DNA of 64,000 nt from Sphagnum magellanicum. Taxonomy: Eukaryota; Streptophyta; Sphagnopsida; Sphagnales; Sphagnaceae. Below the pieces are notes generated by a model that made no database searches, had not been told where the DNA came from, and saw nothing but the letters and a program-made list of their open reading frames with translations. The first letter of the stretch is position 1; each line of letters opens with the position of its first letter. The stretch covers positions 33,222,001-33,286,000 of the forward strand of contig CM038908.1 in NCBI GenBank assembly GCA_021904315.1, written 5' to 3'. This document shows positions 24,796 through 64,000 of the stretch, piece after piece. The translations under genes were made by a program, and so were the position numbers.

Positions 24796-24939
24796 CACTC
24801 TCCAAAGATGCAATTTCCGCTTCGAGCAAATGCACGGACAACAAACACAACTGAGAAACCAACTCTCTGTGAGAGCGAGAGAGAAAGTGTGTGTGTCCCT
24901 CACCAAAGCAAGCAAGACCCAAACCTCTTCCAAGGTAGG

Positions 24940-27589: not shown

Positions 27590-28015
27590 TAAGATTGTTT
27601 GTTTGTTTGTTTTGTTTGTCATGTTCAAATCTGTGAAACCATAATGACCCCACCGTGTTCTTCATATTATTGGAAAGTCATTGACCAATAAGGGTGCACA
27701 AAAAGGTGGTTTCATAGTGTTTAAACATGTGATGCAAGAGTTATTAAATATTGAACAATTTTGTCAAACAAAACTTAAGGATATCAAAAATAAAAATTTC
27801 AGAAAAATTGCAAAATTTTCTTGATATTGTTGAAAAGCCCTCAATGAGTTAGACTTCTTGGAAATGATTTGTAATTTTAGACTTAAAGTGGGAGGTGATA
27901 TCAAATTTTGAATATTTTTTGTCATTGGAAGTTAATTTAAAATTAAATAATTATTCACAAGTGCATTCTATTGTCAAGGTCCTATTCACACTTGTTCCAA
28001 TGACATAAGTCACAC
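27590..28015 (+). repeat. Dispersed repeat R, copy 3
   Basis: Begins with GATTGTTTGTTTG...TTTTGTTTGTCA as copy 4 does. It continues through CTTGATATTGTTGAAAAGCC, GAGTTAGACTTCTTGGAAATGA, TTTAGACTTAAAGTGGGAGG, TTTTTGTCATTGGAAGTT and TTCACACTTGTTCCAATGAC. With copy 4 it defines the longest version of the unit, about 425 bp. Confidence 0.75.
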
Positions 28016-38884: not shown

Positions 38885-39310
38885 AAGATTGTTTGTTTGT
38901 TTTGTTTGTCACATTGAAATCTCCCAAACCAAGGTGCTTTTTGCCATGCTCTTTGATACAGCTGGAAAGCCTTCAGTGAGTAGAGGTGCATCAAGTTGGT
39001 TTGATAATGTTTCGACCTACAATGGAGAAGTTATTGAAGATTGAATCATTTTTTCACTAAAAAATTCATTTAAATCAAAACTAAAATTCATAGAGGAATT
39101 TGGGTGTGTGCTTGATATTGTTGAAAGGCCTTTAGTGAGTAAGATTTAATGAAGATGACTTGAAAATTTTTAGACCTAAAGTGTAGGAGATATTAAATTT
39201 GACTAGTTTTTGTCATTCAAAATTCAATTAAATTGCAAAAAATGATTTTGGAAGGAAAAATTAGTTGGATAACCAATTCACACTTGAGTCAATGACACAA
39301 CCTAGACTAA
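38885..39310 (+). repeat. Dispersed repeat R, copy 4
   Basis: Begins GATTGTTTGTTTGTTTTG as copy 3. It shares TCAGTGAGTAGAGGTGCATC with copy 1, and GTGCTTGATATTGTTGAAAG, GCCTTTAGTGAGTAAG, TTTAGACCTAAAGTG, AGATATTAAATTTGA, TTTTGGAAGGAAAAATTAG and TCACACTTGAGTCAATGACA with the others. It is the most complete and least diverged-looking copy. Confidence 0.75.
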
Positions 39311-40980
39311 TAATTCTGAATTTAACCCTTAATTGACATTTTATCAAAACATTTGAAGTGGGAGGAGGGAGTGTCCACTAGTCAATGTGTAAATGTCTAA
39401 ATTTTAAATTTTCGACTTAATAAAGTTGTAAGGGATTTCAAGTTGAATCTTTTGATAGCCAAAAAGGAATTGAATCAAGGAATGGGAAAAAACACATATT
39501 TAATTAATTTAGAACTTTACAAAAGTCCGAAAATTCAAACAATAACTTTACAATGTTAATTTTTTTCAAACTTTCAATTATAAATGACCTAGTGGCCACC
39601 AAGACCACAAGGAAAAGCTCTAAAAAAATGCAATTTGCATGTAGTGTTTACAAATTGAACTTTAAAGACACCATGGCAAGTTCTTTTAAAGAAAGTTTCC
39701 ATAGATCACACTAAAATTTTAACAAACTTTATTAAATTTATAGATAAAAATTAAATCTAATAGCCACCAAGTTGTGAAAACAAATAATATTGATTTTTTG
39801 AAGAGTTTTGAAACAAAAAAAATCCACTATTAATAAAAAAAATTCCTAAAAAGTCTAAACATTTTAAACTTGAAGGATAAATTGAAAGATAATGTCAAAT
39901 CCTTGTAGTATTACAAAACTTGTTATTGTCCATGGTCAAATATGCAATAACATCGGCACCATCTTGAAATAAAAAATTGAGTGATCAACATCATTTTCTC
40001 CCTTTTAGAGTTGCAAACAACATGTGCAATTTGTGAATAACGGTCCAAACCAACTACAAACAAAAGTCAATACTAGAAAACAAGGGCAAATGAAACAAAT
40101 TATAACAAAAAAATGACTTGCAGAATGAAATGGTTCAAACTACATACCTAAGGGGGCTAGTTATTGCGAACATCACCATTATCATTATCCATATACTAGA
40201 TGAACCAATAATAATTTTTTGAAGAGGAACTTAAACAAGGCTTAGAATATTTGACCATACAATCATAGTGAACTTCAACCATCTTGGCTAATGGTAATTC
40301 AAGAAAGGGTGGCCACAAACAAAATGTGAGGTCTAACCATTGCACATTGTTCTTTGACAACATCTATCCCCTAAATGATTCAAGAAAAAATCCACTCCAC
40401 TTTGGATTCCAAAGTGCCTTGTTGGATTCATCATTAACTAGTGATGTTTGATCATCCTTCCCATAAGGTCGTCCACAACAACCATAATACACTCATTTCA
40501 AATCCTTCAAATAATAATGGGATTCAGGTGAAATTTCACTAGACATCTTAGAGCATTGTCCACATCCCCAAATGAAAACTAGATCTAATAAATTTTTAGG
40601 AATGAGCATGGGAAGAACTTCTAACACATCTTCAAGCTTCATACAAAACCAAATTACAATGTAAAAGTAATTAAACACCTTAAAGAGGAAATGTTCCACT
40701 CCAACTTTCATTTCCACTTTGCTCATGTTAATATTTCTTCCAAAGATTCATGCATTCCCATTTCAAACAATAGAATGCAAGAAATAACACAACACACTAT
40801 CGACATTGAAAATTAACAATTTGCAAACATAGATGTGAACTCATCATTGAAATATGTTTCGAAACCTTGAAATACAAGAACAACAAGATGTTTCAACAAA
40901 AAAACGTACATGGTCCATCTTAATATTAAAAACATTAATGAGTTGAAGAGCAAATAAAGAATCTATCTGAAACTAACAAA
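39311..40980. other. AT-rich flank of the 41-45 kb decayed element
   Basis: Two isolated GGCC-type words occur near 39,590 (CCTAGTGGCCACCA) and 39,758 (AATAGCCACCAAG). A minus-strand frame at 40,493-40,726 may be an outlying part of the neighbouring element, but no domain is recognised. Confidence 0.4.
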
Positions 40981-43900
40981 GAAAACACCTTGTGGCCACT
41001 AGGCGATTTATTGAAGATAAAATAAGAAAAGACAATAATTCGATCCAAAAAATATTGAACTACATGCCCTACAAAGTTTATGTTCCCTCTTTTTATTCAT
41101 TTTATATATTCAATATTATAAGCCAAAATTTTATTTAACTACATTAATTAAGAAAATTCACTATAAAAAAAATATGCCCAACAAATTTTTGTTGGCTTCA
41201 ATTACAATTTAAACATATTATTTTAATTGATAAACAAATTAGAAACTAGTTAAAAACTATTATAGTAAGAACAATAGTAAACATATTACAAATTTTTTTT
41301 AGTTTTGCTTTTGTACAATATGTTGGTTCACAACTAACATTACAATCTTCAAATAACATATTGTAATAAGGATTGCTATGACTTATGCTTCTAATAATCC
41401 CAAAAGGATTATGTCTAATGTAAGTCTAAACATTAAATCTAGATGAATGAAATGAGACCAAGTAAGGAAGAACAATGGAAAACAAGTAATCTCCATTGCT
41501 ACACAAACCCTCAAATGATTCCAAAAATATAGCACCACACAAATCATTATATATAAATTTATATGGCATATCATCTACAAGCAAAATGTTCCCAACATGG
41601 GTGTTGGGAAATTTTGAGAAGAAAACATCAAGGTTTTGTTGGAATATAGGCTTTTTGATATTAACGGCAAGAAAATGATCATTTTTTTAGCATGGCTCTT
41701 GTCCAAAAACCCTTGAAGGATCCAAAGAAATATGTGTTTTTTCTTTAATTTTGTCCGAATATTCGTTGATGTTGTAACATCATGTTGTAGTCCAAATATA
41801 AACTTCAAATCAAACTAAACAACTTATTAAGAAAATTTTCAATCCAAGCTTGAATGTAAGTAATGAACTAGTCAACATTTATGTACAAAACCCAGTAGCC
41901 CGTTTCGCCACCGAGACCCCACTAAGGTCAAAAATCATATGCAAACGATTCACCTCAACAAGTACTTTGGACTAAAGTTGATCTTAGAAGTGAAGACCCA
42001 AAGTTGATGGGACATCATATAGAACTATTTTTGAACACGAAGAAACTTCCTTTGCATCCCCACGAAGAACAATAGGAGTCTAAAGCCACCAAAAAGATGA
42101 AAACAAATGTACTATAATTTTTAAAACTATGATTTTCACAAACAAATTCAAAATTAGAGCATGAAGATGGTATCAACAATTTCAAGAGAACTACTCACCT
42201 AATCATCAGTTTTTTCATTGCTAATGGTGAATTAAATGAGCCATAATCCAAGCTCGCATGTTCTTCAACATCATCTATGTTTCCATGAATAGAATTGTCA
42301 CTCATCAAAAAAACATCTTCCCCTCTACTCCTATCAAAGCCTAGCTCATCACTTACATCAGCACCACCCATTTGCACACCTTCTATGATGCAAAAAACTT
42401 CTTCATTTGCACTAGTTGCAACATTTCTTGTAGGCACACCAGAGAACATCCGAAGACACACAAAAGCAATGATCTCATTGTGATTCCCCTCAAGATTATG
42501 AAGGATGATCTCTAGAACTTTACAATTTTGTTTTTGCGTTTTCAACAAAATATGACTTTACCAAATTAAAAATCAATAATATACAAAATGGATAGAAACA
42601 AAAACACACAAATAGACATATTAGGCAAACATATGTCACAACTCCTCCCCCAAAGATGCTCAGGCAAACCATGCCGCTACTTAAAATGGGCTCCAAAAAA
42701 ATTTCACGGGCCTTTAGGCAAATCTCATTTCTATCAAGCCAATGATCCTCCACAAAAGTGGACATGATGTTCTCAATGATTAACGAAAGTTTCTTGCTCC
42801 TCATAATATCAACCTACATTAATTTCCTGACCCTTCCAACAAAAAGGTACACATAATAATGTACAAGCTCCCTCATGAGGCCTAAGAGTGACACTAAAAC
42901 CTCTTTTGTTCTTGCCATGTACTGTCCAAACTTCAACTACATCTTCATGATATAGGTTGATTTCATGGTGGTTGTGAAAAAGAACTTGAAAAACTCCCGA
43001 TCACAAAAGTAGATGACAACCTTCAAAGTTACCTTTGCATTGAACAAAATGTTTAAAAACTACTACTAGTTTAAACCTTTCCACACTATAGGAACCTCTT
43101 TTATTGTGTGCGTGGTCGGGACTACAACGGAAGTGTTGGTAACGTCATCTTGCAAAACCAAAGTGGATTCTGTTTTGTCAATAACATCAAAAAGCTCTAC
43201 CATGTCATTGACCATGTCATACATGTGATGGGTGTTGAAAAGAATGGACTCTACTACTATTCCCTCTAGAGCAATGCTCTCAATCCACCTTTTCAATGTA
43301 GTTTTGAAACCTGCATATAGTGCCTTGTCAAAGGGATTCAATCTCATTTTTTTTTGTATAAAACACTTCATTGAGCTTGAAATCCAAATTGAAAAGAGCA
43401 ATTTGTCAAGCTTCTACTTCCCCTTCTTCTTGCTCCAGGCTTCATCAAAATATGGTTTCTAATTAGTCGCAATTGGTTTTGGAAATCTGAAATGAATCAT
43501 AGTTTCATTTCAAATGACGACCTTTCTTTTCAAAAGCTTGGTAAACTCATGCATCAACTTTAAGTCAGGTCGTCCTCCCCCCTTGGTTAGATGATCATGG
43601 ATAGTGATGGTTTTTGCAAGAAAACCTCATGCTAGTCTCTCCAATTGCTTTTCCTTTATGTTCGAAAGATAACCAAACATTGATTTTCCAATCAATGTTG
43701 GAAGACGAATCGACACATTTCCACTCCCATCCAAAATGTTGCAATTCTCCCATTTAACAAGAACCATCTGCCACATGTGGAAAACCAGGTTTGAAAGAAG
43801 AAGAATACTCATGCATTCCTTGGTATATTCGATGTTGAACACATGCTTCAACATCTCCTTATATTGTTATATGGTAAAACACATAAAAAAAAGAATTCCC

Positions 43901-45430
43901 AAATCAATCTCTAACACTAAAATGACTTATAGAAAAAGGAGAGAAGTTACCTTGTATTTTTCATTGTGATGTAAAAAGCCATCTACATCTAGTACATTGG
44001 CCTATCATATGATAGTTAAATCCAATAAGCATGTGTCAAGCTCTCGTGATATGACAGTTTTGTGGACAAATTACAATCCTTGTTGTTTAAAATTTTGGGC
44101 ATCTTCACGATTTTCACAAAATCCAACTCCCACACAACAACGATCTCGAATGTACTAAACTTGTTTAAAACATCTTGTCTTGTGTTGGGGTCCTCCACTA
44201 GCATAAAAACACTATCAATAATCGGATGAATAATGAAATTTTTTTAATGTTATAATGTAAAACAAATGAAACTAATATTTGTAACCACAATCATGTGTTG
44301 CCTACTAACGATCAGTTATAAGTTGTGAATGTCCTCCCACTTCTTAAGACAATGTGGAATTTGGCCTCTAGGTCCTCCAGAATTGTGAATATTGGAACCT
44401 TTGTGTCAAATTTGTTGTAAACAATAATTCGTGTCTTGATTTCATTTACATGTTCTCCAAAAAAAGGATGGTAAACGATTTCCAAGGATGGCCTTTTAAA
44501 TCGGTTAACGGGTAGCTTCACATCCTTAATTGGGGTGAAATCAAGTGGAAATAATTTTGCATACTCTTCACCAATTGTTGTGTCCTTTATGCGACATTCA
44601 ATAGGATCAAAGCCATTAACCTCTTTTCCATTAAAATTTTCCCTAATATTTTCTTTTTTTTCTCCGCATTTGTAGCCTCCTTATGTGGCCACTTTGCAAC
44701 CTACTTTCCATTGGAGCTCTCCACCATTATTGTAGTGTGTTAAAATCCTCCTTATAAATCTCTTGTAATTTCTTCCCTTTCCAATTCTATGAGTTCTTTG
44801 AACTCAATCCACTTTAAGAAGACAACCATTACATCAAGATCTGGAAAATCTTTCACTTTGAAACCTTTGTTTACATTGGTTGGAGCAAGCGTATCATTCA
44901 GTTTTTTCACTGGGAACACAAAGTCCAACTTGTTGTTTTTTGCGTGGATCCTAAATAAACAAGATGACTTCATTTAGTGACGATGCCACACCATTGCAAG
45001 GATTGGCATTCTTCTCATTATGTCTTCCATCCATTTTTCACAAAATGGAAATTGAACGGTGAATCTAAACCCACCAACCTAATCGCCCATGCAAAAATTG
45101 ATTCCCAAAGCTCCCAAATTCCAAAAGTTACCTCCAGATGGTGTATGTGAAACCTGATATTTTTTCCCACCATCTTTACAAGAAAAGGTGGGATATATTT
45201 GCAATCAAAGTAATTTTATTATTGAATATCTTTGCTTTGATGCAAAAAGTTGCTTAACAGTTGCTAGGTAATTTTTTGCTTGTCTTTGACACAAAAAATC
45301 ACTTGGGGGTTGGTAAGCAATTTTTCGTTTTGTTTACATGCAAAAATTGCCTAGTGGCCATGTGAAGAATTGCCAAGCAATTTTTTGCTTCGTTTACATG
45401 TGAAAAATCGCCTAATGATTTTTCTCTCTG
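40981..45430 (-). pseudogene. Unclassified decayed element 1 with palindromic borders
   Basis: A chain of coding-like segments lies on the minus strand with protein-like composition (45.1-44.75, 44.65-44.31, 44.20-44.02, 43.85-43.07 and 42.80-42.20 kb), with pieces such as VKDFPDLDVMVVFLKWIEFK, EIVYHPFFGEHVNEIKTR, VVWELDFVKIVKMPK and FDKALYAGFKTTLKRWIES. I recognise no family. Its upstream side carries a block of short inverted-repeat units (45,240-45,428, such as AAAAATTGCCTAGTGGCCA and GCCAAGCAATTTTTTGC), and its downstream side has TTGTGGCCACTAGGCGATTT at about 40,989. It has several breaks and looks dead. The shared border motif suggests kinship with the element at 57-62 kb; protein similarity between the two is not evident to me. 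Confidence 0.5.
45240..45428. repeat. Block of GGCC-type short inverted repeats (element 1, upstream side)
   Basis: Four units at about 50-55 bp spacing, each a GCAATTTTTTGC-like arm opposite AAAAATTGCC with a CTAGTGGCCA or diverged centre. Spaced by CGTTTACATG-type linkers. Same design as the block at 56,917-57,280. Confidence 0.65.
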
Positions 45431-47112
45431 GTCACTTTGATTATTGTTTCATTTATTCTCACTAATGTTTTTGGAATTTACGAGTTTTGAAGTATTTACA
45501 AGCTTGTGCCAACCATGTCGACTTTGACTTTGCCTTTAGATATTGTTATATGAATGAATATTCACCTACGAGAAATTATCATTGGTGGTTTAAAACTTGA
45601 ATTCCAGTGTGTTGATGTATTCATTGGACAAAATGTTATTCACAATCACAATGAAGGAAACAGAAGAGAGATGTTTTGTGAGAACAAGGTTTCACATAAA
45701 TTATGTGTTGGAGGCTCCTAATCCCATATTGATATTTTGTATTCCTATCATGTGTACATGTACACCTATGGACTTAAAGTGCAATTTAAATTCAAAGACA
45801 AAAGAAGAATTGAATTAAATGTAAGAGACAAAAAAATTTAATTTAAATTAAATTAAACCTTTGGAACATAGAAACATTCAATTGAGCTTTGAGTAATAAT
45901 GAAAAATACACAAAAGGAAAAATGGAGAGACAAAAACAGAGAGCCAAAGATTTGTCAGAGATTTTTTTCTTTCAAAGGCATAAAAAGAGAAACAAAGATA
46001 TAGAGAGTTATTACTCCTTTGCGATTAATTTGAAAAAAACTTATTGGGAAAAATTGTTCTACTTACTCTCTTTGAGGAGGAGAATAGTTCATTCGAAAGG
46101 TTTACCTAACTTATTTACAAAAAGACAAACATAAAGACACATAGAAAAAGATAGAGATAGAAAGGATTTTTAGTGTGTAGAAATAAACACAAAATACAAC
46201 CAAATAGAATATTGGACATAGACATATAAAAGAGGTAGACAAACAGAAAGTATTTTTAGTTTTTTTTGGAAATCAAAATAGAATAAAAAAATTTATACTT
46301 ATGTTTTGAAACAATCATAGAAAAAAAATCTACTTGTGTTTGAAACCAAACATAAAATGCACAAATTTGGCTTGTGCTTGGAAATTGACACCAAAAAAAA
46401 ATCTTTCTTTAATTTGGAAATTAAAAATTAAAAAATATTTTTGTTTTGAAATTAACATAGAAACAAGAGAAATAGAAACAAAGAAATATAAATTCTTTAC
46501 GTGTTTGGAATTATATATATATTGGAAATTGATTAAAAAATAAATAAAATTTATGTGTTTATAATGAAACAAACAAATAAGTATTTTTGTTTTTGTTTTG
46601 AGATTGTCTCACAAAAACAATTTGGAATCAAACAATGAAATGAAAAATAAAAAAATGAGAATGAAAGAAATGAGAAAAACAAAAATCAAAGGAAGAAATG
46701 AAAGACACAAAAATCAAGGAAAGAAATGAGAACCTAAGGAGAATTGACAAGGAAATGTAGGTTGTGGTTGTGGTTTGTAACTTTAAGAGATGTTGTATGT
46801 CATGAACGTGTTGCAAGTTTTACGTCATAGGCACATTGGAGATGGAAAAACACACTGAGAGTGATAGAAAAGTTCTACACTTTTGCCTTTGCCTTCACTT
46901 TCATTTTCACCTTTCAAATGGAAACCAATAAAGACGAACACAAGAAAACTTCTTCATAACAAAAAAAAAAGACAAACAAAAACAAAAAGAAAGAGACACC
47001 AAGATAGACAAATAGATAGCAAATAAAGAGCTAAAGAGAGAGAGAGAGAGAAGCAAAACGAAAAAACATAACGAAAAAAATGGAGATAAAACTAATGTGA
47101 AAACAAAGGGAA
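45431..47112. other. AT-rich, purine-rich intergenic stretch
   Basis: Long A- and AG-rich runs (for example 46.58-46.75 and 46.95-47.10 kb, including a GAGAGAGAGAGAGAG run at 47,033-47,052) produce chance frames on both strands. No gene is supported. Confidence 0.5.
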
Positions 47113-47858
47113 TCTTATATATTAAAGCAACAGTGGTGTCTGTCTGTCCGGGCAATGCCTGGAAAATTCTTCCAGTCATAACTTCCCCAGATGTAACTGA
47201 CTCCAGAGAAAAAAAAATCAGGGGCAGTCTGATTTTTTGAGGAGCTTCCCCAGATGTAACTGACTCCAGATAAAAAAAAAATCAGGGGCAGTCTGATTTT
47301 TTGAGGCAAAAGATTTGGTAGACCAAAAAAAAATATTTAGGCCTTGGACAGCCCAAAATTTTATTTTTTTGTTTTTTTGTATTGACCAAGATTACCTTTT
47401 TTTTTCTTTTAACTACTGTCCGTCCCGATTAAGGGGACGGATGAAATGTCCGTTCGGCTTGATGACAAGACGGATTTAGGGGAAGACCAGAAAAAAAATA
47501 TTTAGGCCTTGGACAGCCCAGAATCAATTTTTATTTTTTTTGTATTGACCAAAACTACCTTTTTTTTCTTTTAGCTACTGTCCGTCCCAATTAAGGGGAT
47601 GGATGAAATGTCCGTCCGGCTTGATGACGGGACGGATTTTGGGGAAGCTTTTTTTCTTTTAGCTACTGTTCGTCCCAATTAAGGGGATGGATGAAATGTC
47701 CGTCCGGCTGGATGATCACAAAATAATAATAAAAACAGAAAACAAATAAAAATAAAAAAATAAAAAAGTTAAAAGTTTCTAAAAAAAATTAAAACGCTAA
47801 CCAAGTTTAAAGAAATCGAGGAACTTCACAGTGGCCAAAGGTCATGGGCACCCACTAG
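47113..47858 (+). mobile_element. Non-autonomous Helitron, copy 4
   Basis: Starts TCTTATATATTAAAGCAACA after an A. It ends with an imperfect hairpin (GTGGCC-AAA-GGTCAT), GGGCACCCA and CTAG followed by T. Internal tandem modules: CCCAGATGTAACTGACTCCA with GGCAGTCTGATTTTTTGAGG (two copies), TTTAGGCCTTGGACAGCCCA (two copies), and CTACTGTCCGTCCC with ATGAAATGTCCGTCCGGCT (three copies). No coding sequence for Rep/helicase. It is the intact reference for copy 1 at 4.9-5.6 kb. Confidence 0.8.
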
Positions 47859-49905
47859 TATGAATGAAAGAAGTAGAGTGACAAACAAGGCGAGAAATAT
47901 ATATATATAATTTTTTTAGTCATTTATTTTGACCTTTTTTTATTTCAAAGTTTATTAAACTTGAGAAAAAAATTGATCATTTGTCCAAAGATTCTAAAAT
48001 CATTTGTAAGGTTTGTCCTCATTTTATGTCTTGCATATGGTAAGTTGTCCCTAGTTTTGTATGTTGTCCTAGGTTTAACGTACCATTCGGTTATGATTTT
48101 TGACATTTCTTATTGATTTTTATGTACAAAGGCCTGACATAGATAATCTTTTTCTCACAAGACCCAAGCATGACCCTGCCCTAAACTATGCTTCAAGCAA
48201 GGAAACTTCAAGAATATCTTCAACAAAACAAATGTTAAGGCTTTCTATTGACACCAAAGTAATGTTACTTATCCATAAGCAATTTTCAAGTTGCCTACAT
48301 CCATACAAGGTTCGTCTGGCAAAAAAAATAAAATCCTTTCTACACACTTATCCATGTTTGCATTAAGGGCCAATCCCTTCATTGCAACTTTTTCTTTTCT
48401 TTTTTGAAGTATGTTGAAACATCCTACAAATAGGTCTTGCCTCACTTAACCCCATCCCATCATAACCATAAACATATTGTTAGTGGGGAAGTGAAGAAAA
48501 CAAGGTTTTTTAAACAGTCCCAACTTGTTATTGATGTCATACAAGATGCAAAAATAGACTCAAAATATTTTACATAAGTCAGAATGGAACCAATGTTCAA
48601 ACTAGAGTATTGTTCCAAAGAAGAAAACATTGATTTTTGCTACAATACCCCCTTGACATACCTTTTTTGAAGCTACCACAACTACACAACAAAGCAACTA
48701 CACCTTAACTTTGCCCTTGAACTTACACCGTTGTATGCTAGACTATTCTTTCTTTTCAATGCTTTGGAACTTGTGCTTTGCAACCTATGCTTCACATTAT
48801 GCTATCCAACACCAAATTTTGGAAAGAAAAAACTTTACGAGTAGGCAATTTGCATATTGCTCTTTGGTAAGTTCTACCTTACCTATGTTTTTAAAGCATT
48901 TGCTACTCCTTTTTTTTCTGAACCTTGTGGCAATAGTAAAATTAATGTATGCCCTTATTTAATGTGCCCATAATTCTTTTTGAGAAATTACAATGTTGTC
49001 ATTCTTCAAAAATTCAACCACTTCCTTGTTTCTTTCTCCCCAAAATTTATTACCCTATGTTGTCACTCTCAAGTTTTATCTTGATTCTCAAATAGTCACT
49101 GTCTTGAATTTCTAGCCATCCAAATCTAGACTAGATGGATTAGGTTTGATGGTCCATGAGTGGATGAAAACTTTCTTCATTTCACTCCTTATATATGTTC
49201 TTTTTGGGCAACAACATATCCAACCCAAAAGTGTTTGTCTTGATGGGCAATCACCAATTTCTTTTGTCTCTGAAATATGAAGCCCATGCTTCCATCTTTT
49301 TCTTTTTCTTTCTCATGTAGAATTCCTATTCGGTGTATGGGTAATCCATTAAATGTTTGTATTTTAAACCTTCAATGAAAATATCATTTAGTGTGATCTT
49401 TTGAAAGGTATAAATAACATATTATGGTGAACATATGATGTGTCTATATGTGTGTACATTAGATGTATAATATTTCATAGTGTATTTTTGGGGCCTTTAT
49501 ATATATAATCTGGTATGCATTGTCAAGTGTATCCATTTCCCTTCTTTGTTAAAGAGGGAATTTTATGCTCTATTATTGGCCATGTTTTGAAAGAAAGAAA
49601 AAAAAAAGGGGGAAAAAAAAAACAAAACAAAGATGGAGAAAAAAACTTGAAAGACAATGAAATGAAATGAGAATGAGATGTGGAGATAAACCTTAAATTA
49701 AGTCATGAACTTTAATTGCTTTGTTAATTTTTATTCGTCTTATTTTTCATCCATGGTTTTCATATTTGGTTTCCAATACTTCCCATACATGTTTTATATG
49801 TATTTGCCTTATCCATATATGAAAAATATTTGAAATCGATTTTATTGAAAAAATATTCTAACTTGTTTTTCTTGGTAAAAATGTATTTGATTCAATTTGA
49901 ACCCC
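47859..49905. other. AT-rich intergenic stretch
   Basis: Plus-strand frames at 48.10-48.37 and 48.71-48.96 kb look protein-like in places (PDIDNLFLTRPKHDPALNY) but match no family I know. A poly-purine run lies at about 49,590-49,640. No gene is supported. Confidence 0.4.
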
Positions 49906-52015
49906 TAAATTGTGAACCTTGTGAGGAAAAAAATTAACCTTAAAATTTGTGAAACTCTAACCTTAAATTCATGAAACTATAAACCTTTAAATTCATTACA
50001 CTTTACACCTTAAACCTTAAACCCCTAAACCCTACATTGAAAACCCTAAACCTTAGTATTTTATTCCAAAACTAAAAACCTTAAACCCCAAACCCTTAAA
50101 CTTGAACCGCTAAGTTGTAAACCTTATAAAACAAATTTAACCCTAAAATTCATGAGACTATAAACCTTAAAATTGATGAAACTTTCAGCCTTAAAATTCA
50201 TTACATTCTAAATCCAAAACCCTATAATTACATTTTAAAATTAAAAACCCTAAATGGGTGAACATCATTTAAGGTGTATCACACATGATGAAAAAGGCCT
50301 AGTCCTTACTACAATTCTTTTTTACCCTATAATTTGATCCCCATAGAAAATAATGAGTCAAAAGTTATTAAATTTTTTAGAAAGATTATATACTAGATCA
50401 TTACAATTCTAGATTCCATCATAATCACCCATAAATGTGTTTTTACATGGTAAAAAAAAATCTAGGTAAAAAAGACAAAAAATGGTGACAATGTGACAAG
50501 ATTTTGGTACACCTCAAAAAATTTAGACCCAAACCTTAAACCCTTAAACTTGAACCCCTAAGTTGTAAACTTTATAAGGAAAAATTTAACCCTAAAATTC
50601 ATAATACTATAAACCTTTAAATTCTTGAGATTCTAAACCTTTACATTCATGAGACTCTCAACCTTAAAATTCATGAATCTCTCAACCCTAAAATTCATTA
50701 CACTCTAAACCTTAAACTTAAACCCTAAATCTTAAACTCAAAATCTTAAATCTTAAAATCTTAAACCCTAAACCCTAAACTCAAAACCTTAAACCCTAAA
50801 CCCTAAACTCAAAACCTTAAACCCTAAACCCTAAACTCAAAACCTTAAACCCCAATAAATAATGTTAAACCATAAACTCAAAAACTTAAAACCTTAAACC
50901 CCAATAAATAATGTTAAACCATAAACTCAAAAACTTTAAACTTTAAACCCTAACATTCAAAATCCTAAACCTTAATATTTTGTTCTAAAATTGCAAACCC
51001 TAACACTCAAAACCTTAAACTTTAAACCTTAAACCCTAATATTCTATTCTAAAATTGAAAACCCTAACATTCAAAACCTTAAACTTTAAACCCTAAACCC
51101 TAATATTCTATTCTAAAATTGAAAACCCTAACATTCAAAACCTTAAACTTTAAACCCTAAACCCTAATATTCTATTCTAAAATTGAAAACCTAAGCATCT
51201 AAACTTTAAACCCCTAAAACCCTAAACCCTACATTGAAAACCCTTAGACCCTCCATTGAAAACCCCAAACCTTAAATTTTAAACCTTAGTAATTAACTTA
51301 AAAACTTAAACCTTGAACCTTGCTACTGAATTCTAAACCATAAACACTTGAATTATAAAATTCCCTCAAATTCAATTCGAAACCTTAAACCTTAAACCCG
51401 AACATTCTAAATTGAAAGCCTTAAACCCCTAAACCTTAAATTGAAAACCCTGAACCATTAACCCTATTATTCTATTCTAAAATTGAAATCATAAAACCCT
51501 AAACCCTAAACTCTAAAGCCAAACCTTAAACTTTAGACCCCTAAACCCTTCATCGAAAACCCTAGACCATAAACCTTAATATTCAATTCTAAAACTTGAA
51601 CCCTAAACCCTAGTATTCAATTCTAAAACTTAAACCTTGAACCGTGAACCTTACTATTAAATTATAAACCATAAACACTTGAATTGAAAGCTCCCTTGAA
51701 TTCAACTTGAAACTTGTAACTTGAAACCTTAACCTCAAAAACCCTAAACCCTAATATTCAATTCTAAAACTTAAACCTTGAACCTTGAACCTTATTATTG
51801 AATTCTAAACCATAAAAACTTGAATCATAAAGTTCCCTTGAATTCAACTTGAAACCTTAAACCTTGACCTCAAAACCTTAAACCCTAAACTAAAAACCTT
51901 AAACCCCTAAACTTTAAAACCTCAAAATTGCAAACCTTGAACTTTAAAGTCATGAACCTTAACATTAAATTGTAAACCTTAATTTTTTAACTCTAAACAT
52001 TAAACCTTAAACCGC
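49906..52015. repeat. 2.1-kb telomere-like (CCCTAAA-derived) degenerate array
   Basis: The whole stretch consists of diverged AACCCTAAA, AACCTTAAA, AACTTTAAA and AAACTCAAA words. It has local higher-order periods: about 28 bp around 50,755-50,850 (AAACCCTAAACCCTAAACTC repeated) and 63 bp around 50,985-51,190 (CCCTAATATTCTATTCTAAA repeated three to four times). Perfect plant telomere words occur in it but never in long pure runs. Unique-looking AT-rich DNA on both sides shows it is interstitial, not a chromosome end. Confidence 0.9.
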
Positions 52016-54420: not shown

Positions 54421-56900
54421 TATCAAACCTTCAATAAGAGTGTACATATGGATATGTCTCTATATACTTGGATGTCATATACTCAAATTAAAGTTTATTA
54501 TTTAATATTTCATAAAGAAATATTTGTCAATGATTAATTAATTATTAATTACTATGTAACATACTTAATTACTATGAAATAATTAGTTAAACTAAATTGG
54601 CATCTATTCATATGAATTCATTAATCAAATTTAAGAATTATTTTCTAAATTAATTCAAGAATGTAAAAAATCAGATAATTAATTATCTAAATTAAATAAC
54701 TGAATAATTGTCTGAATTTTATTACACAATTCAAATAATCATTCTAAATAATTAGTTCACTTATTCTTCTAGTATTTTAATTCCTACCTAACTATTTACC
54801 TACTTATGGCTATGTATTGACCTACCTAGGTACTTATATATTTGTTCCAAAATTATATCAATATGCCACGTGGCAACCCTATGGGTGAACATATTCATAG
54901 AATATGTTCAATACTTGATAAGCACTAAAATATATATTTTTCCAATATAGATGACATTTTTTAAAAGGGCCAAAATTTGTTAAATTTTGAGGGAACAACA
55001 TTCAAATTGCCAAATTTTGTAGAAAAATGGGAAAAAAGGCCATTTCTTGTGAGAAAATGTAGAACACTTGACAATTTCTTGCATAATCATACATAATATG
55101 TAGCAAAATCTATCTAAACCATTCTTTTGAAAATTTCCAATTTTCGATGTCACAAATTTTATTTTTTGGAATTTCCATGTATTGGGGTTGAAGTTGTAGT
55201 TAAAACATAAATTTATAAGTGGCATTCCAATGTATTATTGTTCCATCATTATTTTGAGAGTGGAGACTCCACTCTCAATTATCACCCTTATTGTTACAAG
55301 AAAGGCAAGGGTCTTATAGAAACAACATTCCATAATGTTTTCTTGCAATGACAAAAATTTCTTAGGTAAACATTCAAGGTTGGCTTTAATGTGCACTACA
55401 AGAGCAAAAATGCAAGTTGAAGACAATGATATACAACAAAAGCATGTAGATTATTCTACCATTCGACAACTATTGCTTCTCCAAAATATGTTACAAGGGA
55501 AGCGAAATAGTGATTTCGTCCCTCCACCTGATCAAAAAGGTTTCAAAAGTTGTTCGGCACACCAGAACATCGAACATTTGTGTTTTTAGGAATTAGGTTC
55601 CACATTTGACCTCGTTCTACCTTGCTAGTTTTCATCATATTTTTAATTTGCAACTTGATATTCATCTTTTTTTCTATTCCATCTTGTATGTCTTTTGTTA
55701 GTGATCATGCACCTTCAATTCTTTTGTTGAACATTGTAATCATCTTGCCATTTTCCTCAACGAAAATGTTCTCAACAGGTAGGGGTCACCGAACTATTGC
55801 ATGTGTGGAATAGAATGCTCGTTTTGCTTAAACCCAACAATAGGGAATGCGCATAACATTACACTCCTCTAAATACATCTCCTTGTTTTTTTCAAATTTT
55901 GCATCAATCTCCTTTTGAGATCACGAATATTAATAAGTGGTTCAACCTAATTGTCATTATGTTCAACTGTTCAATTCAACCCAATGAAAACCTTTCAATT
56001 AAATTGCAATGGATTAGGGTTTAGGGATTCGGGCTATTACATTGTTTTTGTGTGCAATTGCATCCTACAATAGTCTCTAAGCTTCAGAAAACATCATCAT
56101 TTAAGATAATTGAATGTGGCACAGATATTAACATTCTAAAATTAGATTGGATTTCATAAAAACCTTAATAATATTTTTAAATGACTGTTTGGTTTCTAGA
56201 ATCAGGATGTCACCTAAAAGTTGTGGCAACAATTCAAAGGAACAGATTGGACAACTCCACCTTTAGGAAAAAATAATTCAAAATATGCAAGGTACAAATT
56301 TAAAAAGTCTTGTTCATGAAGGTCCGATAGACAATACATGGTTCAAAATCTTCAAAATTGGGGAACAACTTCAAATGGACTTCTCATCTATTATTCAAAA
56401 ATGATAACCTACTTACATTGAAGTATGTGCTTTTGGAATTCACCACCACCACTTAAATAGTCACATTTTTTCTTATTGTTGGATACTTTGTTTTTTGAAC
56501 TTTTATCATATTCAACTATGAATTTTACAGTGTGATTTAGAATCTCATGAAGCTTGTCTCTCCTAATCCAAACAAACAAGACCACTTACTACTATACAAG
56601 GAATACATTATGAGTGTCGTTTAATTATATTTATTTGAAATATGTAAATTAGAAATTGAAAATTTAGTTGTAACATAATTTACATGATTATATCTATAGT
56701 AGGCACTGCACATACGATATTACAAGATCATTTTGTTAAGTTCCTTGAATCAACATGCATTAGTGCACAATGAAGGAATGTATATAAATAGGGTCAAGAC
56801 CCTTTTCCTAACTAAAGAGGTGAAAATATATTATTTATGTTTTTCTTTTTTTTATTTTAAAAATTTTCTTTTTTTCTCATGTTTGTCCTCAACAATTGGG
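54421..56900. other. AT-rich stretch before element 2
   Basis: A plus-strand frame at 55,335-55,589 has protein-like composition (VDYSTIRQLLLLQNMLQGKR) and could be an outlying part of the element at 57-62 kb, but I recognise no family. The rest shows no gene, RNA or clear repeat. Confidence 0.4.
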
Positions 56901-56916
56901 CTCCATGTTGAAAGAT

Positions 56917-57280
56917 GAAAAAATGCTTAGTGGCCACTAATCATTTTTTCGATTTAGAAAAATGAAAAAAAAAATGGTAGCTGCTAAGCATTTTTTCCAT
57001 TTTGAGAATTGAAAAAACACCTGGTGGCCATCATTTTTTTTTCATCATTAATAGTAGAAAAAATTCCTAATGGCCGCTAGGCATTTTTTCATCTTTCTAA
57101 GTGGGGGAAAACATTTGGCAGTTGCTAGGCATTTTTTCGCTTTTAACTGATGTAAGAATGCCTAGCAATCACCAGACATTTGTATAGTGTAGGAAGATGT
57201 AAAACCTCATGGCAGTCACCAAGAGTTTTTTTTGCATAAACATATGAAATATTCCCTAGTGGCTATCAATCGTCCTTTTT
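56917..57280. repeat. Array of about eight GGCC-type palindromes, spacing about 48 bp
   Basis: Each unit is a short inverted repeat of the form GAAAAAATGC-TAGTGGCCACTA-GCATTTTTTC. The first (56,917-56,950) is almost perfect; those centred near 56,984, 57,027, 57,074, 57,122, 57,168, 57,214 and 57,262 are progressively diverged. Spacing between centres is regular at about 43-50 bp, so this is an ordered array of hairpins rather than chance palindromes. It sits directly upstream of the decayed coding region at 57.6-61 kb. Confidence 0.8.
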
Positions 57281-57599
57281 GCACAGAACAATGAGAAAAC
57301 TCTTGTCCTCCTACATGGAAGACATGTTGTCACCTTTCTGCACGAAAAAAACACGTAGCTATCTGATATGTTTTCAGTGAATCAACGAGGTGGAAGCCAT
57401 TCGGAGTGGGGAATTTGACTTGAGGGACAATCCTTGCACTTTCCTAATATAAATGTTAAAATTGTTTGGGCACAAATCAGGCACTTGGCTTATGTTTAAA
57501 AGTTTGATTTCAATTTCATGTTCTTTCAGGTTTTCCCAAAATATGGTTGACATAACCATATTTGGGAGTAGCATTAGCATTTGGAATTTGTGAAATAAT

Positions 57600-60500
57600 G
57601 AAAGGGTGATGATAGGAAGTGGAACTTGTAGAGATCCATTTCTTATTATGAAATATGATGCTTCAAGGGGAGAGACTTGCATAGTGGTTTTAATTGAAAC
57701 TATGTTTGAATCCTTTGAAGATCGTAAACTTTTTATTTTGATGCTAGCTGTTAGATATTTTGGGTTAGCCATTGGAATGGAAATATTTTGGCCTTTTAAG
57801 GATTTATCCTTGGATGACGCAATGACTACCACAGGGTTACAACAATGTTATGTTTCCATGGATGGTTGTAATGATCTAGGGAAGAAAATATTTTCATGCC
57901 TTGACAAGGATTTGCTTGAAGCCATTTTTGAGAATGTTGACAAAGTTGAGGAATCCGGAGACATGGGAGATGGTTTTTGTGACAAGGAAATTAATTCAGA
58001 AATGAATTATACCTCTGATGAGTGTGTGAAATGCTTCACTGGGGGGTCTAGATTTGATTATAACAATGAATAAGGAAGTGAAGATGAAACTACGACAAGA
58101 TATGATGATAGAGAAAATGAAGATATTTTAAAAGAAAATTGGGAGCAAGAGGAGCAAGCAAATAGGCAATGAGATGAGGACAAACATGGTGAAGGATATG
58201 TGGACAATAAGGGTGCGGGTAATTCAAATATTGTAGGAAGATGTAGGTTTCAATAGAGAGGAGTTGAATGCAATCTTTTAGATGATGATGGCGTTATCAC
58301 TGCAAAAGGTCGGATTATAACTTGCGACCTTATGGAGTTCTTGATGATAAGCTTGGTGAGGATCATGTTGGGTTGTGTATTTTCTATTGTCCTAGTATTG
58401 TGTCAACAGTCACGACAATTTGGAAATGGCCATTATCTTTAATTATTTTTTATGGTTATTCTCTACAATGGCATCTTGTGATGCATAATGAAGGCCATGT
58501 TCTAGATGCTAATGAAATGGGAATAGTTGGAGTGAAGAAAAAACAATATATTTTTCATAAGAGGAAATGAGGCTCATGTGATTATGAAGGTGCAACTTCT
58601 AAGATTGAGAAGGTTTTTTCTAAGGAGTATGTGCAAAATGTGAATGTGTTGATGTGTTGTGGGATGAATTGTTGCCAACATTTCCCTTGTGAAAAGACAT
58701 TGTTCTTGAGGCAAGAGTTTTGGAGCTTGTCATTTGAGGACTAGAGAGCCTATGGATAAAATATTCCAAAAAGGTTGCATATGAAAGGAAACATCATGCA
58801 ATGAAAATGCAAGGTGTGGATATTTGCGAAACTATTTGGTAAATATCGTTGGTGTATCCATGTCAACATATATGTTGTATAAATCTACTAGCAAATGAGG
58901 TTGTTGATTTCTACCACATGGTAATAAGGGTACACATAAGTTACAAATGTGAACAAAAGAATTGGAATCAAATGTTCAATCACTGATCAACTTGTTTGTG
59001 GGTACATTGTTGCATCAAATGAAGGGCATTGGAAATGGTAGACAAGATGTGCAACATTTATTGCCTAAATCTTGGAAGAGTTTTCAAAAGCGAAGCGATC
59101 AAATAATTGAATTGATGGATTCTCATTTGGATTGGTTGTGATTGCATATTTGGAGACATTCGGTTGTTTGGGCATCCATTTTCTTAAAGCTTAATTCGAT
59201 TTAAGCTCTTGTTTACGTTGTTACAAATAAGCAAGGAGTTAAACATTGGAGGTATTTCGCAATCTACTATGAGTTAATTGAGGAAAAGACACCATTTAAA
59301 TGTAGATGTGTGAAAACAAAAGCTAGTTTTCTCAAAATGTTCTATTTGTAAATCTCGCAAAGATTTAATATCCAAATTGGGAAAGCATAGCAATGATGTA
59401 ATTGGATATGAAGTGAAGCTAAGAAAAAACATCTTGCACTAAAAGTCATGTAGAAATTTATATCATACATGGAAAACAAAATCTATTTGATCAAAGGAAG
59501 AATTCCTATGCGTTATCCATGACAAAATGGATCATGTGAAAATTGTTCTTCCAAGGCTCCAAGTGTGAAACATAATTATTTTTGATCTTAGAAAATTGCT
59601 TATTATTCTTACAAGTATAATAGCCCATGGACACATGGATGAAAGATATGTTCAATATTCGAATGAGTTGTGGCCAAACAATCCAATTTCACAATTGGCT
59701 TTTTGTTGCAACTCTTTTGCACTTTAAAAGTAACCTTGGTGTTAAAGTCAAAACTATTGTTTAAAGAACCCCCACATAACTCATTCTTTATGCTTCTTTT
59801 GCAAGGAAAATCATGTTGTGTACATGATTTATGCACATTAAAAAATGTTTTTGGTACAAAGCCATTGTCAAAAAATTTGTTGTTCCAAATGGATAACTAC
59901 ATGAAAGACAACAAAAATTGGCATTTTTTGGCATTTCTTTCATTGTTAAATGTGAAGGATGTGTTTGAAGAAGTGAAATTGGGATTTCTTGTCGTTGGCC
60001 ATACACATGAAGATATTGACAAATGTTTTGGGTATCTATCAAAAAAATTAAGAGAACAAAAATTATGTTTTGGCTAATTTGATGTTTGGCGTTCATGGTT
60101 TCCTATGAACGATCATTTATTCCTTAGTTTATTCAAGAGATTCCATATTTTAAATCTTGGGTAGTAGGTTGTTTGAAGGATGGCTTTGAGACTTTGGTAG
60201 GGCACACTGATATGCATTTTTTGAGATTTTTTGTTGATTCATCGAGCTGGCCTTGGATGTAATACAAAGTTTCTCCCATAGATCCTATTTGGAGTCTTGC
60301 AAATGCGCCTTTAATTAGAATGTGGAAACCTAATCCTAATGGGTCACCAAATTTGCTTATGAATGTCCCTAGCCTTGCTCCTTACTGCGCCATTTGGGAC
60401 ATTGATCCTTTGAAATTTGTTGAAAGACAAAAGCTCATTAGTGTTGAACTATCCAAATATGTGGATTTTTGGAAGGTGAGCATTGCACAAAGTGCAACTT

Positions 60501-61000
60501 ATGAATGAAGATGAAGCCATATGTTGAGTATTGAGAAGATATTTTGTTACACTTGTTTAGACCTTTACCCCATCAAAATGCCACCCTTTTGGATTGTGTT
60601 TGCCTTTTAAGCAATTGGAAATCTAACTACTTTAAGGCTTTGTTGTCAACCACTGTTGTTGGTGTTGATATAGAAGACCCAATACTATGCCCTTATTGTG
60701 GGCCAAAAAAATGAGGCTTTCAATTGCATACACCCCATTTAAAGATTTTAATGGTGGGGATTTTGTTCTTGTCAAACTTCATGATCTTTGGCCTTGTTCC
60801 TATTTGGATGGGAATAACAAAATGTGATGTTGTGAAAGATGAGGAAAATGCATTTTTCAAAGTGGTGAGGGTTCAATGGTGGTTTCTTATGAAAAAATGC
60901 ACAAATATCGATGAACGACATCTATATCAAGATTGCTGGAATCGAAAGTGGAAATGTAATTTTGCAAATCCAGAATAGTGGCTTGACATTTCATCTGTTT
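57600..61000 (+). pseudogene. Unclassified decayed element 2 (VGHTHEDID-domain protein)
   Basis: Successive plus-strand coding-like segments form one decayed gene. An acidic N-terminal part lies at 57.6-58.07 kb (GLQQCYVSMDGCNDLGKKIF). The segment at 59.67-60.08 kb has FQMDNYMKDNKNWHFLAFLS and LGFLVVGHTHEDIDKCFGYL. The end at 60.32-60.98 kb contains FKVVRVQWWF and DERHLYQDCWN. The QxDN...NKN..H.LAFLS...VGHTHEDID pattern is, from memory, that of the DUF7869 family found in repeated genes of plants and other eukaryotes, probably mobile-element proteins of unsettled class. The gene is broken in several places. GGCC-type repeats lie on both sides (56.9-57.3 and 61.2-62.2 kb). Confidence 0.65.
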
Positions 61001-61179: not shown

Positions 61180-62180
61180 TTAATCAATTTATTCATGGTA
61201 CGAAATTATTCTTGTCTATTCTTGGACATTATTGATCAATAATCTTTTAAAATTTGTTACATTTGAACCCTAATCCTTAGTGGCCACTAGGCATCCTTTT
61301 TTTTCATTCTTGGCATATATAACCTTGAATTTATTAATGATTGTGATATGTTTTTGTATTTGATGAGGTGTATTGTTTAATCAATTTGTTCATCACAAAA
61401 AAATTTGTGTACATTCTTGGATAGTCATAATCAATGATCTTTGTTGTTACACCTTAACCTTAATCCTTAATGGTCACCACTCTTGTATTTATTGTTTTTT
61501 GGCATTAAATTTAAATGTATTATGAATGTTTTTATTTTTGGGTTCTTTTGTTTTTGATGTGGCATATTTTAAAGCAATGCTTTGGTCCTAGAAAATTATA
61601 TGTGTATATCTTTAAACAATCATGGTCAATGATTTTATTTATTTATACCTTAACCCTCATCCTTGGTGGCTATTTATTGTCTATTTTTTCTTTCATGGCA
61701 TAAAGTCCGAAAATTAATTTTAAAATTATTTATCATAAAAAATTGTTTGTGTATATTCTTAGATAGTCGTTATCAATAATTTTATATTTCAACCTTAACC
61801 CTAATCCCTAATGGCCACTAGGTGTTTATTTTTTTCTTTCATGCCATTGAACTACTTGGAATTATTAATGAAATTTTTGTTATTGTATGAACAACAACTT
61901 TGGATCCATAAACATTATTGTGATTTACGAATTGGTTCATGTTGTGATTAGTTCTTTGTAATTTAGTAAATAAAATTTCTATTTTTCATGGATAGGAGCA
62001 TAATTCGACTTCCAATTTTGATGATGAATAACCTATAATTTCCACTTGGTGGGCACAAGGCAAAAAAAATCTTTTGAGACAAAAAATTGTTTACATAGGT
62101 GTTATATTTTTGAATGATTCATGTTTTTACTTGAATATAAGGTTACATTTGTTGTATTTGGTGGCCACTAGGTAGAGTTC
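61180..62180. repeat. Tandem array of about 185-bp units, each with a GGCC palindrome
   Basis: Units run through TTAATCAATTTGTTCATCAC, ATTCTTGGATAGTCATAATC, AATCTTT, an AACCTTAACCCTAATCC telomere-like word, and AGTGGCCACTAGGCATC followed by TTTTTTTCATTCTTGGCAT. The palindrome recurs near 61,280, 61,470, 61,660 and 61,815, with further copies near 62,050 and 62,165. Spacing (about 150-190 bp in the first four) differs from the 48-bp array on the other side of element 2, though the core motif is the same. Confidence 0.7.
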
Positions 62181-62199
62181 ATACCATTGACCAAATTGG

Positions 62200-62880
62200 G
62201 TAAAATTATAAATTAACAATTTAGTCCTAAATTAATTAAATTAAAAAAAAATCACCATTGAAAAAAACAAGTCTATTAATTATGGGCAACTTTCAAATTT
62301 TCATGTTTTTAGAAAATTTGATCAAGCTATCATGCTTCATTGATGATAAAAATTATAGGGTAGTAAAAAGGGATCAATATGGGGTTGGTGAAAAAAAGAT
62401 TTGTTCCATTCAAACTTGGGATGAGAGAAAAAAAATGATAAAAAATACACATTCATTTGGCATCTACACAATCAAAAAAAGGTAACCTTTTGTGATATTT
62501 TTGCAAAATTTTACTACTTGAAATTATCATCTTTTCCGTAGTGCAAAACTATTGAACATAGAAAACATATATACATGAAGCTAGGTTGGTTGGTCGTCAT
62601 TCTTAACATAAATTACCACTATTTACATCTAGATTGATTGCTAGTAATGTAGAGTTTTGTTGTTTATGACTATACGTCACTTCTTCAAGTGACCAAATGT
62701 CAATTGACCATAAACGGTGACATGTCACAAAACTTCAAAACAACTAGTTGAAATTAATTTATTATATCAAGTGTGCAGCTAATATTTTACACCTTCCCTC
62801 ACACCTTATTCTTATGTTTGCATAATTTTACAATTGACTAATTCATGTTCAAAATATTCAAACTTGAAATCACTCCAACA
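62200..62880. other. AT-rich spacer
   Basis: A 75-codon plus-strand frame at 62,258-62,485 (DDKNYRVVKRDQYGVGEKKI) has protein-like composition but no recognised family. Otherwise nothing is seen. Confidence 0.35.
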
Positions 62881-64000
62881 ACTTGTTGTAGACCTTCAAA
62901 CTTTGTTCTTCCCAAAGGTTTGGTGAAAAATCTACTTGTTATTGGCAACATGGAACATGCTTGATGTCAATTTCTTTTGATAATACTTTTTCACATACAA
63001 AGTGGTAGTGACATTCAATATATTTTGTTTAGGCGTGGAAAACTCGATTCTTGGCCATCTTGATGTTATTAACGATGTCACAAAAAAAGTTTTATCTATA
63101 TATTCAATTTCAATTGGAAACTTTTTTAACCAAACACCCTCTTTAATGCCCTCCATTAATGTGCAGTACTCAGCTTCAGCTCAAGACAAAGCTATTATAG
63201 GATTGTCTCCTTCCACACAATGACATTGGGGAAATTCCAATTTTTAGAAGATAACCACTAGTCAACCTTCTAAGTTTTGTATCCCTAACCCAATCAGTGT
63301 CCACAAAAGCTTCTAACTTAATGTTATTCCCTTTCTTAAAGAAAATTCCATGTAAATCATGACGAACTAAATGTTTCCTTCATTGTGCCAAAATTAAAAG
63401 TTGGGTTAGTTTCGCACTTAGTCATGATTAAACTTTTTAAAAGGTTATTAATCTTCTTGTACTAGGCTCAAGAAGCTTGACGAAATCCATAGAACACTTT
63501 ATTAAGTTTACAAATTAGTTGTTCATATCCAAATTTTATGAAGCCTTCAGGTTGTTTCATGTATACCTCTTCTTTTTATCATTGTTCAAAAACATTGTTT
63601 TGACATCCATATGTGAGATTTTCCAACCAAAGTGATTAATGAGAACTATCACACTTCTTATTGTGCTCCATTTGATTATTGGAGCAAAAGTTTCTTGAAA
63701 ATCCAAGCCTTCCTTTTGTTCAAACCCTCTAGCAACTAGCTTAACCTTATATTTTGATGGTTTGCTTGTGGAGTCATTCTTCACCTTGAAGGTCCACTTG
63801 GCTGTTATTGGCCTCTTTCCTACAAGCAATTTAGTTAATTGCCATGTCTAGTTGTGTGAGATGGAATTCATTTCATCAACCATTGCCATTCGCCATCTAT
63901 TATCCACTATTGCTTTAAAAAAAGTGGTTGGTTCCCATACACGATCAATAATTCTTACAATGAAATCATCAAACCACCTAGGCATCACGGTCGTTCATTT
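62880..64000 (-). mobile_element. Ty1/copia retrotransposon fossil (pol region, runs off window)
   Basis: Minus-strand pol remnants lie in the copia order. The upstream edge of the reverse transcriptase domain reaches the window end, followed by the RT core near 63.83-63.56 kb (KWTFKVK, LVARGFEQKEG, FAPI, HMDVKTMFLN), then a shrunken middle and RNase H-like sequence near 63.22-62.88 kb (GIKEGVWLKKF and downstream). It is broken, with several interruptions, and clearly old. No LTR is identified inside the window; the 5' part lies beyond position 64,000. Confidence 0.85.

Follow-up and report, generated by a model that had tools for sequence, protein, structure and literature searches.

A regular palindrome array in Sphagnum magellanicum belongs to an old, decayed and apparently undescribed DNA-transposon family

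The palindromes studied here form a real array, and they belong to an old, repeated and decayed DNA-transposon family that is apparently undescribed. The window, by which we mean the whole 64-kb stretch of DNA analyzed (C2:33,222,001-33,286,000 of a 439-Mb genome), holds one copy of the element spanning 39,490-62,248, or 22.8 kb, including at least one nested repeat. The copies form a repeated family with a common terminal repeat, and the same palindromic core is found upstream of two genes and near both ends. On balance, we favor the reading that the array (array 2 below) is one of two operator-like arrays of a large, decayed terminal-inverted-repeat DNA transposon carrying two divergent genes, a DUF7869 gene and a second gene, here called gene M.

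Array 2 consists of eight GGCC-centred units starting at 56917, 56964, 57011, 57057, 57105, 57152, 57199 and 57246, with spacings of 47, 47, 46, 48, 47, 47 and 47 bp. Their site-model scores were, in order, 38.0, 19.5, 23.2, 40.2, 24.7, 22.6, 13.6 and 16.8; seven of the eight thus score at or above the threshold of 14, and not one such site appeared in any of 200 first-order shuffles of 56,400-57,900. Because the site model was made from the fetched loci and the window itself, its scores are only relative; the pattern counts given below, with palindromes read backwards as controls, are independent of it. An ordered, regularly spaced array of eight such units had been predicted from the letters of the window, and this was borne out.

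The second array is also real but more decayed. Of the five places scored in array 1, only that at 45244 passes (18.8), while two fall just below the threshold (45293, 13.0; 45341, 12.4) and the two others fail. The original prediction had described the two arrays as nearly identical in design, which is right for the core palindrome and wrong for the unit as a whole: array 1 (85 sites) and array 2 (132 sites) have one consensus core in common, though spacer, period and gene differ. Both arrays do adjoin decayed coding sequence, as had been noted, array 1 lying beside gene M and array 2 beside the DUF7869 gene.

Table 1. Features of the element copy in the window (window coordinates; a dot marks features without strand)
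Feature	Position	Strand	Basis or remark
Left terminal repeat, outer class, AAACACATATTTAATTAATTT	39490..39510	+	1 mismatch to TAACACATATTTAATTAATTT; listed left end at C2:33261491
Lone palindrome site, ~1.5 kb inside left end	40979..41012	.	score 38
Gene M, decayed	41429..44973	-	broken open pieces; tblastn, codon-position counts
Gene M pieces	44755-44973, 44315-44680, 44019-44243, 43630-43866, 43069-43413	-	
Gene M pieces, rest	42812-43000, 42523-42813, 42198-42557, 41578-41814, 41429-41686	-	
Array 1, decayed palindrome units ~49 bp apart	45244..45435	.	upstream of gene M
Nested repeat, foreign to element	47115..47701	.	second copy at 4890-5537
Telomere-like AAACCCT repeats, degenerate, mid-element	49784..52013	.	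34 AAACCCT words in 50,001-52,000
Stretches homologous to left part of DUF7869 module in L014 and L027	52820..54398	+	
Array 2, eight GGCC-centred palindromes, spacing 46-48 bp	56917..57279	.	site model
DUF7869 gene, decayed	57594..60975	+	pieces 57594-58070, 58289-58567, 59667-60074, 60263-60505, 60715-60975
DUF7869 domain (PF25273)	59835..60062	+	motifs DNYMKDNKN and VGHTHEDID
Right subterminal repeats, palindromes at 61267, 61457, 61653, 61798 and 62148	61267..62181	.	2 of 5 pass threshold
Right terminal repeat, last bases eroded in window copy	62221..62248	-	homology end in five copies compared; listed right end

Read from left to right, the window copy (Table 1) comprises the left end, gene M on the minus strand, array 1, the telomere-like repeats, array 2, the DUF7869 gene on the plus strand and the right end with its palindromes. 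The arrays had been thought to mark element borders. They do not: measured from array 2, the left end of the window copy is 17.4 kb away and the right end 5.0 kb, and a border at the array was rejected because homology continues for kilobases past it on both sides. The telomere-like AAACCCT region is dense in five other loci as well (L016, L018, L019, L024 and L026), pointing to a transposon subfamily with telomere-like DNA. The nested repeat and its second copy in the window share 85% identity over 648 columns and have internal tandem units of ~163 bp. Elsewhere in the window, a Copia-type reverse transcriptase fragment (PF07727, E 1.5e-22) lies just beyond the right end of the element, at 63,560-63,847 on the minus strand. 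A dispersed repeat of ~350 bp is present at least three times (65-398, 27,599-27,955 and 38,889-39,312, the last just left of the element), and the longest listed open frame of the window (23,968-25,137, minus strand, 389 aa) matched no Pfam family at E 0.01 or better.

Across the genome, the palindrome is common. The 18-bp form GCCTAGTGGCCACTAGGC, with up to three mismatches, occurs at 532 places, compared to 8 for its backwards-read control; longer patterns of 24 and 26 bp occur at 72 and 60 places, respectively, compared to 0 in each control. In 32 fetched loci plus the window (325,028 bases), many of the loci having been picked for carrying arrays, the site model found 280 sites at threshold 14, 267 at 16 and 248 at 18, compared to 0, 1 and 0 in shuffles.

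The 24-bp and 26-bp matches listed (for the latter, 100 of 120) gave 63 stringent clusters, and their position relative to the two genes is far from even. Among the matches listed, 33 of the 63 clusters lie 1.6-4.2 kb upstream of a match to gene M (16) or DUF7869 (17), and two lie downstream of one, within 6 kb. Counting either side, 38 clusters have a listed match to one of the genes within 6 kb and 25 have none; in five of these 25 (L009, L014, L022, L026 and L027), pieces of the DUF7869 gene were present when the DNA was read. Against the 150 scored DUF7869 matches, of 259 candidates, 18 of the 63 clusters are within 5 kb of a match, where 0.34% would be expected per cluster; 17 of these lie 2.6-4.2 kb upstream and one 1.7 kb downstream. 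A further 23 clusters, counted apart from the 63, were found among 100 listed matches to the 18-bp pattern. Four of them are within 5 kb of a listed DUF7869 match, all 1.65-1.89 kb downstream, which is where the right-end sites are.

Direct reading of 20 array loci (L009-L028) gave a clearer picture, with one of the two genes downstream and pointing away from the array in 18. In seven (L010, L015, L016, L017, L021, L024 and L025), the gene is gene M, recognized by tblastn with the window gene (pieces 41578-41814 and 41429-41686 matched L024 only), and the arrays are counterparts of array 1. In the other 11 it is the DUF7869 gene, found by tblastn with four of the five window pieces in ten loci (L009, L011, L014, L018, L019, L022, L023, L026, L027 and L028) and by DNA homology in L020. 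Several arrays without a DUF7869 gene therefore carry gene M instead. The remaining two loci, L012 and L013, have arrays and neither gene, and are near-copies of each other. The proposed tie between arrays and DUF7869-type genes thus holds. The accompanying check, whether arrays lie mostly away from such genes, gave a mixed answer: the 25 clusters with no listed gene within 6 kb count against the tie, and the five with DUF7869 pieces and the 18 loci with one gene or the other count for it.

The gene beside array 2 is a clear member of the DUF7869 family (PF25273; E 2.7e-24, 86.2 bits against a curated cut-off of 26). Of its 259 candidates in the genome, 150 were scored, and among these 150 stretches 18 are free of stops, many of them short. 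Gene M is multicopy as well (152 matches, 197 candidates), and it matched no Pfam family above that family's cut-off. Stops are now present in most of the listed matches to the genes. Even so, substitutions by codon position number 646/532/771 for the DUF7869 gene (p 3e-10) and 332/259/416 for gene M (p 1e-8), both p values treating pairs that share the window copy as independent. Both genes thus show traces of past protein-level selection, and both, judging by these counts, would once have made protein. Among 29 open pieces from the window and the loci scanned with Pfam, only DUF7869, in the element, and the reverse transcriptase, outside it, exceeded the curated cut-offs; the remaining matches were weak and under cut-off, and matches in decayed exons may have been missed.

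Acidic motifs, DN(x)4DNKN and HTHEDID, recur in the DUF7869 copies read, which invites, from sequence at least, a reading of the protein as a transposase. Other approaches added little to this. A fold prediction of the domain from five sequences was unusable (pLDDT 37.6), PDB sequence searches returned nothing meaningful (best E 1.1 and 0.18), and no relatives were confirmed in viral contigs or in bacterial and archaeal genomes. In the open-licence full texts searched, we found no paper with DUF7869, PF25273 or GHTHEDID and none pairing a transposase with HTHEDID. As far as this literature and the Pfam searches reach, the element is repeated, decayed and undescribed, in keeping with the original prediction.

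The ends fit a DNA transposon. On the right, homology stops at one point in five aligned copies (~62,248 in the window), the outer flanks differ in most copies, and the last 22 bp recur inverted at the left as TAACACATATTTAATTAATTTA. This 22-bp terminal repeat, with up to two mismatches, is found at 117+149 places, compared to 7+4 in the control. Dispersed copies with common inverted ends, a feature of class II elements, were found as end pairs on C8, C13, C15, C10 and C11. Those on C13 (10.7 kb) and C15 (9.9 kb) enclose an array and a DUF7869 gene; that on C8 (11.0 kb) encloses a DUF7869 gene, with no stringent array inside among the matches listed. Among 40 of the 172 candidate right ends, 19 have a same-strand DUF7869 match 2.0-4.4 kb inside, and none of the 40 has a listed match within 6 kb on the wrong side.

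The left ends are more complicated. Of 123 candidates, 40 were listed, and the extent of their match separates these into two classes. Among the matches listed, gene M lies inside 8 of the 13 outer-class ends and outside none, and it lies outside 16 of the 27 inner-class ends and inside none; no gene M is found within 30 kb of the other 5 outer-class and 11 inner-class ends. In the window copy, the left end at 39,490 is of the outer class and every other left-end match has at least 6 mismatches in 21, and it is for this reason that we take the copy to extend from there to 62,248. Two kinds of left flank, X and Y, are shared among the inner left ends, and the end pairs on C13, C8, C15 and C11 have inner left ends of this type; many copies therefore look composite, as does part of the left structure. 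A first candidate for the left boundary ('TTCACC') was discarded, since it proved to be an insertion in one copy.

On C19, the right flank is also common to four copies. Three copies of the DUF7869 module on C19 (at 602,553, 682,262 and 769,685), ~80-90 kb apart, have both flanks in common, which suggests segmental duplication. On C2, four inner left ends lie within ~120 kb (3,844,305 to 3,971,253) in what appears to be a local expansion, and gene M matches lie 8.7-9.0 kb upstream of three of the four. It had been proposed that ends be located from target duplications; in eleven pairs of ends, many of them eroded or composite, no target-site duplication was recognized.

Do the two genes belong to one element? 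Of the 152 gene M matches, not all of which were listed, 109 places were used, most second pieces of one copy having been left out by hand. Among these, 34 are within 40 kb of a DUF7869 match, where ~2.7% would be expected. Among the matches listed, 28 of the 34 neighbouring pairs are divergent, with gene M upstream and on the other strand (p 3.6e-12 against 25%), or 27 of 33 with the pieces of one copy merged. The median distance between the genes is 15.7 kb, similar to the 16.7 kb in the window. The best-surviving alternative is a pair of separate transposon families, one with gene M and the other with the DUF7869 gene, that have ends and binding sites in common and frequently land side by side. 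Two observations are readily explained in this way: many copies have a further internal left-end class between the two genes, and inverted terminal repeats can flank the DUF7869 module by itself. We nevertheless consider separate families rather unlikely, given the one fixed divergent order in 28 of the 34 pairs (among the matches listed) and the window copy itself, in which both genes lie between the outer left end and the right end and the only internal left ends at up to 6 mismatches are chance-like matches with 6.

Taking the single two-gene element as our preferred reading, one can go a step further and tentatively envision DUF7869 as the transposase of an undescribed eukaryotic DNA-transposon superfamily, with two divergent genes each behind its own array of palindromic operators and, in one subfamily, a telomere-like centre. 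Many copies also have the terminal repeat once more internally, which may give the DUF7869 half ends of its own. This fuller scheme is a possibility that we would not yet put on a level with the two-gene element itself.

What might the palindromes do? The 248 sites at threshold 18 have a palindromic core, in whose columns most of the variation is by transitions. Sites at the right end retain the core in another context, with ACCCTAATCC before it. The commonest spacing is 45, 46, 47, 48, 49, 50 or 54-57 bp, depending on the copy, and is near constant within an array; strict helical phasing was discarded as an explanation, given that periods differ between copies. Within 13 arrays, the core carries 0.03-0.11 transversions per site and the spacer 0.16-0.40, with overall identity little different (0.52-0.65 and 0.38-0.63, respectively). 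Such a pattern would fit a core that was maintained as long as the arrays were alive. Between copies, on the other hand, cores show no greater conservation than the remainder of the element and in fact change faster, with 0.258 compared to 0.101 transitions and 0.065 compared to 0.038 transversions per site (0.104 transversions in the spacer). Our reading is that putatively methylated cytosines decayed after silencing, and the comparison is no proof of constraint.

These numbers also bear on whether the arrays are ordinary satellite-like tandem repeats, grown by slippage within the element and with no binding function. A period that is near constant within an array and differs between copies (45 to 57 bp) is what slippage might leave behind, and the faster decay of cores than of flanks between copies fits as well. 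The excess of spacer over core transversions within the 13 arrays does not, and neither does the recurrence of the same core in front of two different genes and, in other contexts, as single sites close to either end; we judge this explanation improbable. About equally improbable is that a host transcription factor binds the sites, the element having borrowed a host promoter switch. Sites upstream of both genes would suit such a factor, but it is hard to see what it would do at those in the right subterminal repeats and close to the left end. Finally, it is very unlikely that the palindromes act as RNA or extruded-DNA hairpins, such as small-RNA precursors or terminators of element transcripts, in spite of their near-perfect inverted repeats and the covariation of outer arm pairs 1-4 and 7 (z 2.3 to 8.8), which we ascribe to array lineages: core pairs 8-17 are paired no more often than independence predicts (z -1.1 to 2.1; 248 sites), so that changes on one side go uncompensated, and the arrays lie upstream of the recognized coding pieces, not after them. 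The hairpin structure originally proposed for the units thus finds no support in the core from the test of half-site covariation, which argues for a dyad there instead.

It seems more plausible that the palindromes served as docking sites for one of the element's own proteins, and they probably did. The arrays had been put forward as recognition sites for a multimeric DNA-binding protein at element borders; symmetric sites in several settings do look protein-bound, and it is the position at borders that fails. Nothing seen pointed to a replication initiator as the binder. We imagine that an element-encoded protein, as a dimer or multimer, would bind the palindromic core in front of each gene and close to the ends. 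In the former position it would set the expression of both promoters, and binding at arrays and ends together might fold the ~20-kb element so that its distant ends meet. The DUF7869 protein may be the transposase and the gene M product the binding protein, or the reverse, and movement would be by cut-and-paste. Such a scheme is modelled by analogy on the division of labour between TNPA and transposase in En/Spm.

With this element, DUF7869, a domain of unknown function, gains a concrete setting in a mobile element, as well as a partner gene. The layout, with many repeats of one symmetric site in front of two divergent genes and close to either end of a ~20-kb transposon, would also make a natural system for studying how so large a cut-and-paste element pairs its ends and keeps its own expression in check.

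Among known systems, MuDR has two genes with separate promoters, as this element has two genes. Those of MuDR are convergent, with promoters in the long terminal repeats; here, the genes are divergent, and Pfam found no MULE domain in the pieces scanned. Nor did any marker domain of hAT, Helitron or LTR elements exceed its cut-off in the element pieces scanned. The P element (PMC7776569) is 2.9 kb long, with 31-bp ends, 10-bp transposase sites near the ends and 8-bp duplications. It shares with our element terminal inverted repeats and internal sites for the element's own protein, the latter putative here. An RNase H-type transposase like that of the P element is proposed for DUF7869 as an analogy, any sequence relation having been assessed by Pfam scans alone.

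A further likeness in overall plan is to CACTA (En/Spm) elements. Tgmt of soybean is 20.5 kb, and in En/Spm one product is the transposase, while TNPA binds the repeats, acts as a regulator and is required for movement (PMC2613891). Similar size, terminal inverted repeats and repeated subterminal motifs are common to both; here the repeated motifs are palindromes near both ends and in two internal arrays, candidate binding sites by their sequence. However, the terminal repeat starts TAACACAT, not CACTA, and the ends read TAACACATATTTAATTAATTTA. Pfam detected neither a tnp2 nor a TNPA-type domain in the pieces scanned, where decayed exons may hide one, and the 3-bp duplication was not seen in the eleven end pairs, many of them eroded or composite. 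The genes here are divergent, and the arrays lie upstream of them, kilobases from the ends, rather than being subterminal. The element is therefore not CACTA by its ends or by the domains found, and it fits no family nameable by Pfam besides DUF7869; it is best described as a DNA transposon, possibly the representative of a new superfamily.
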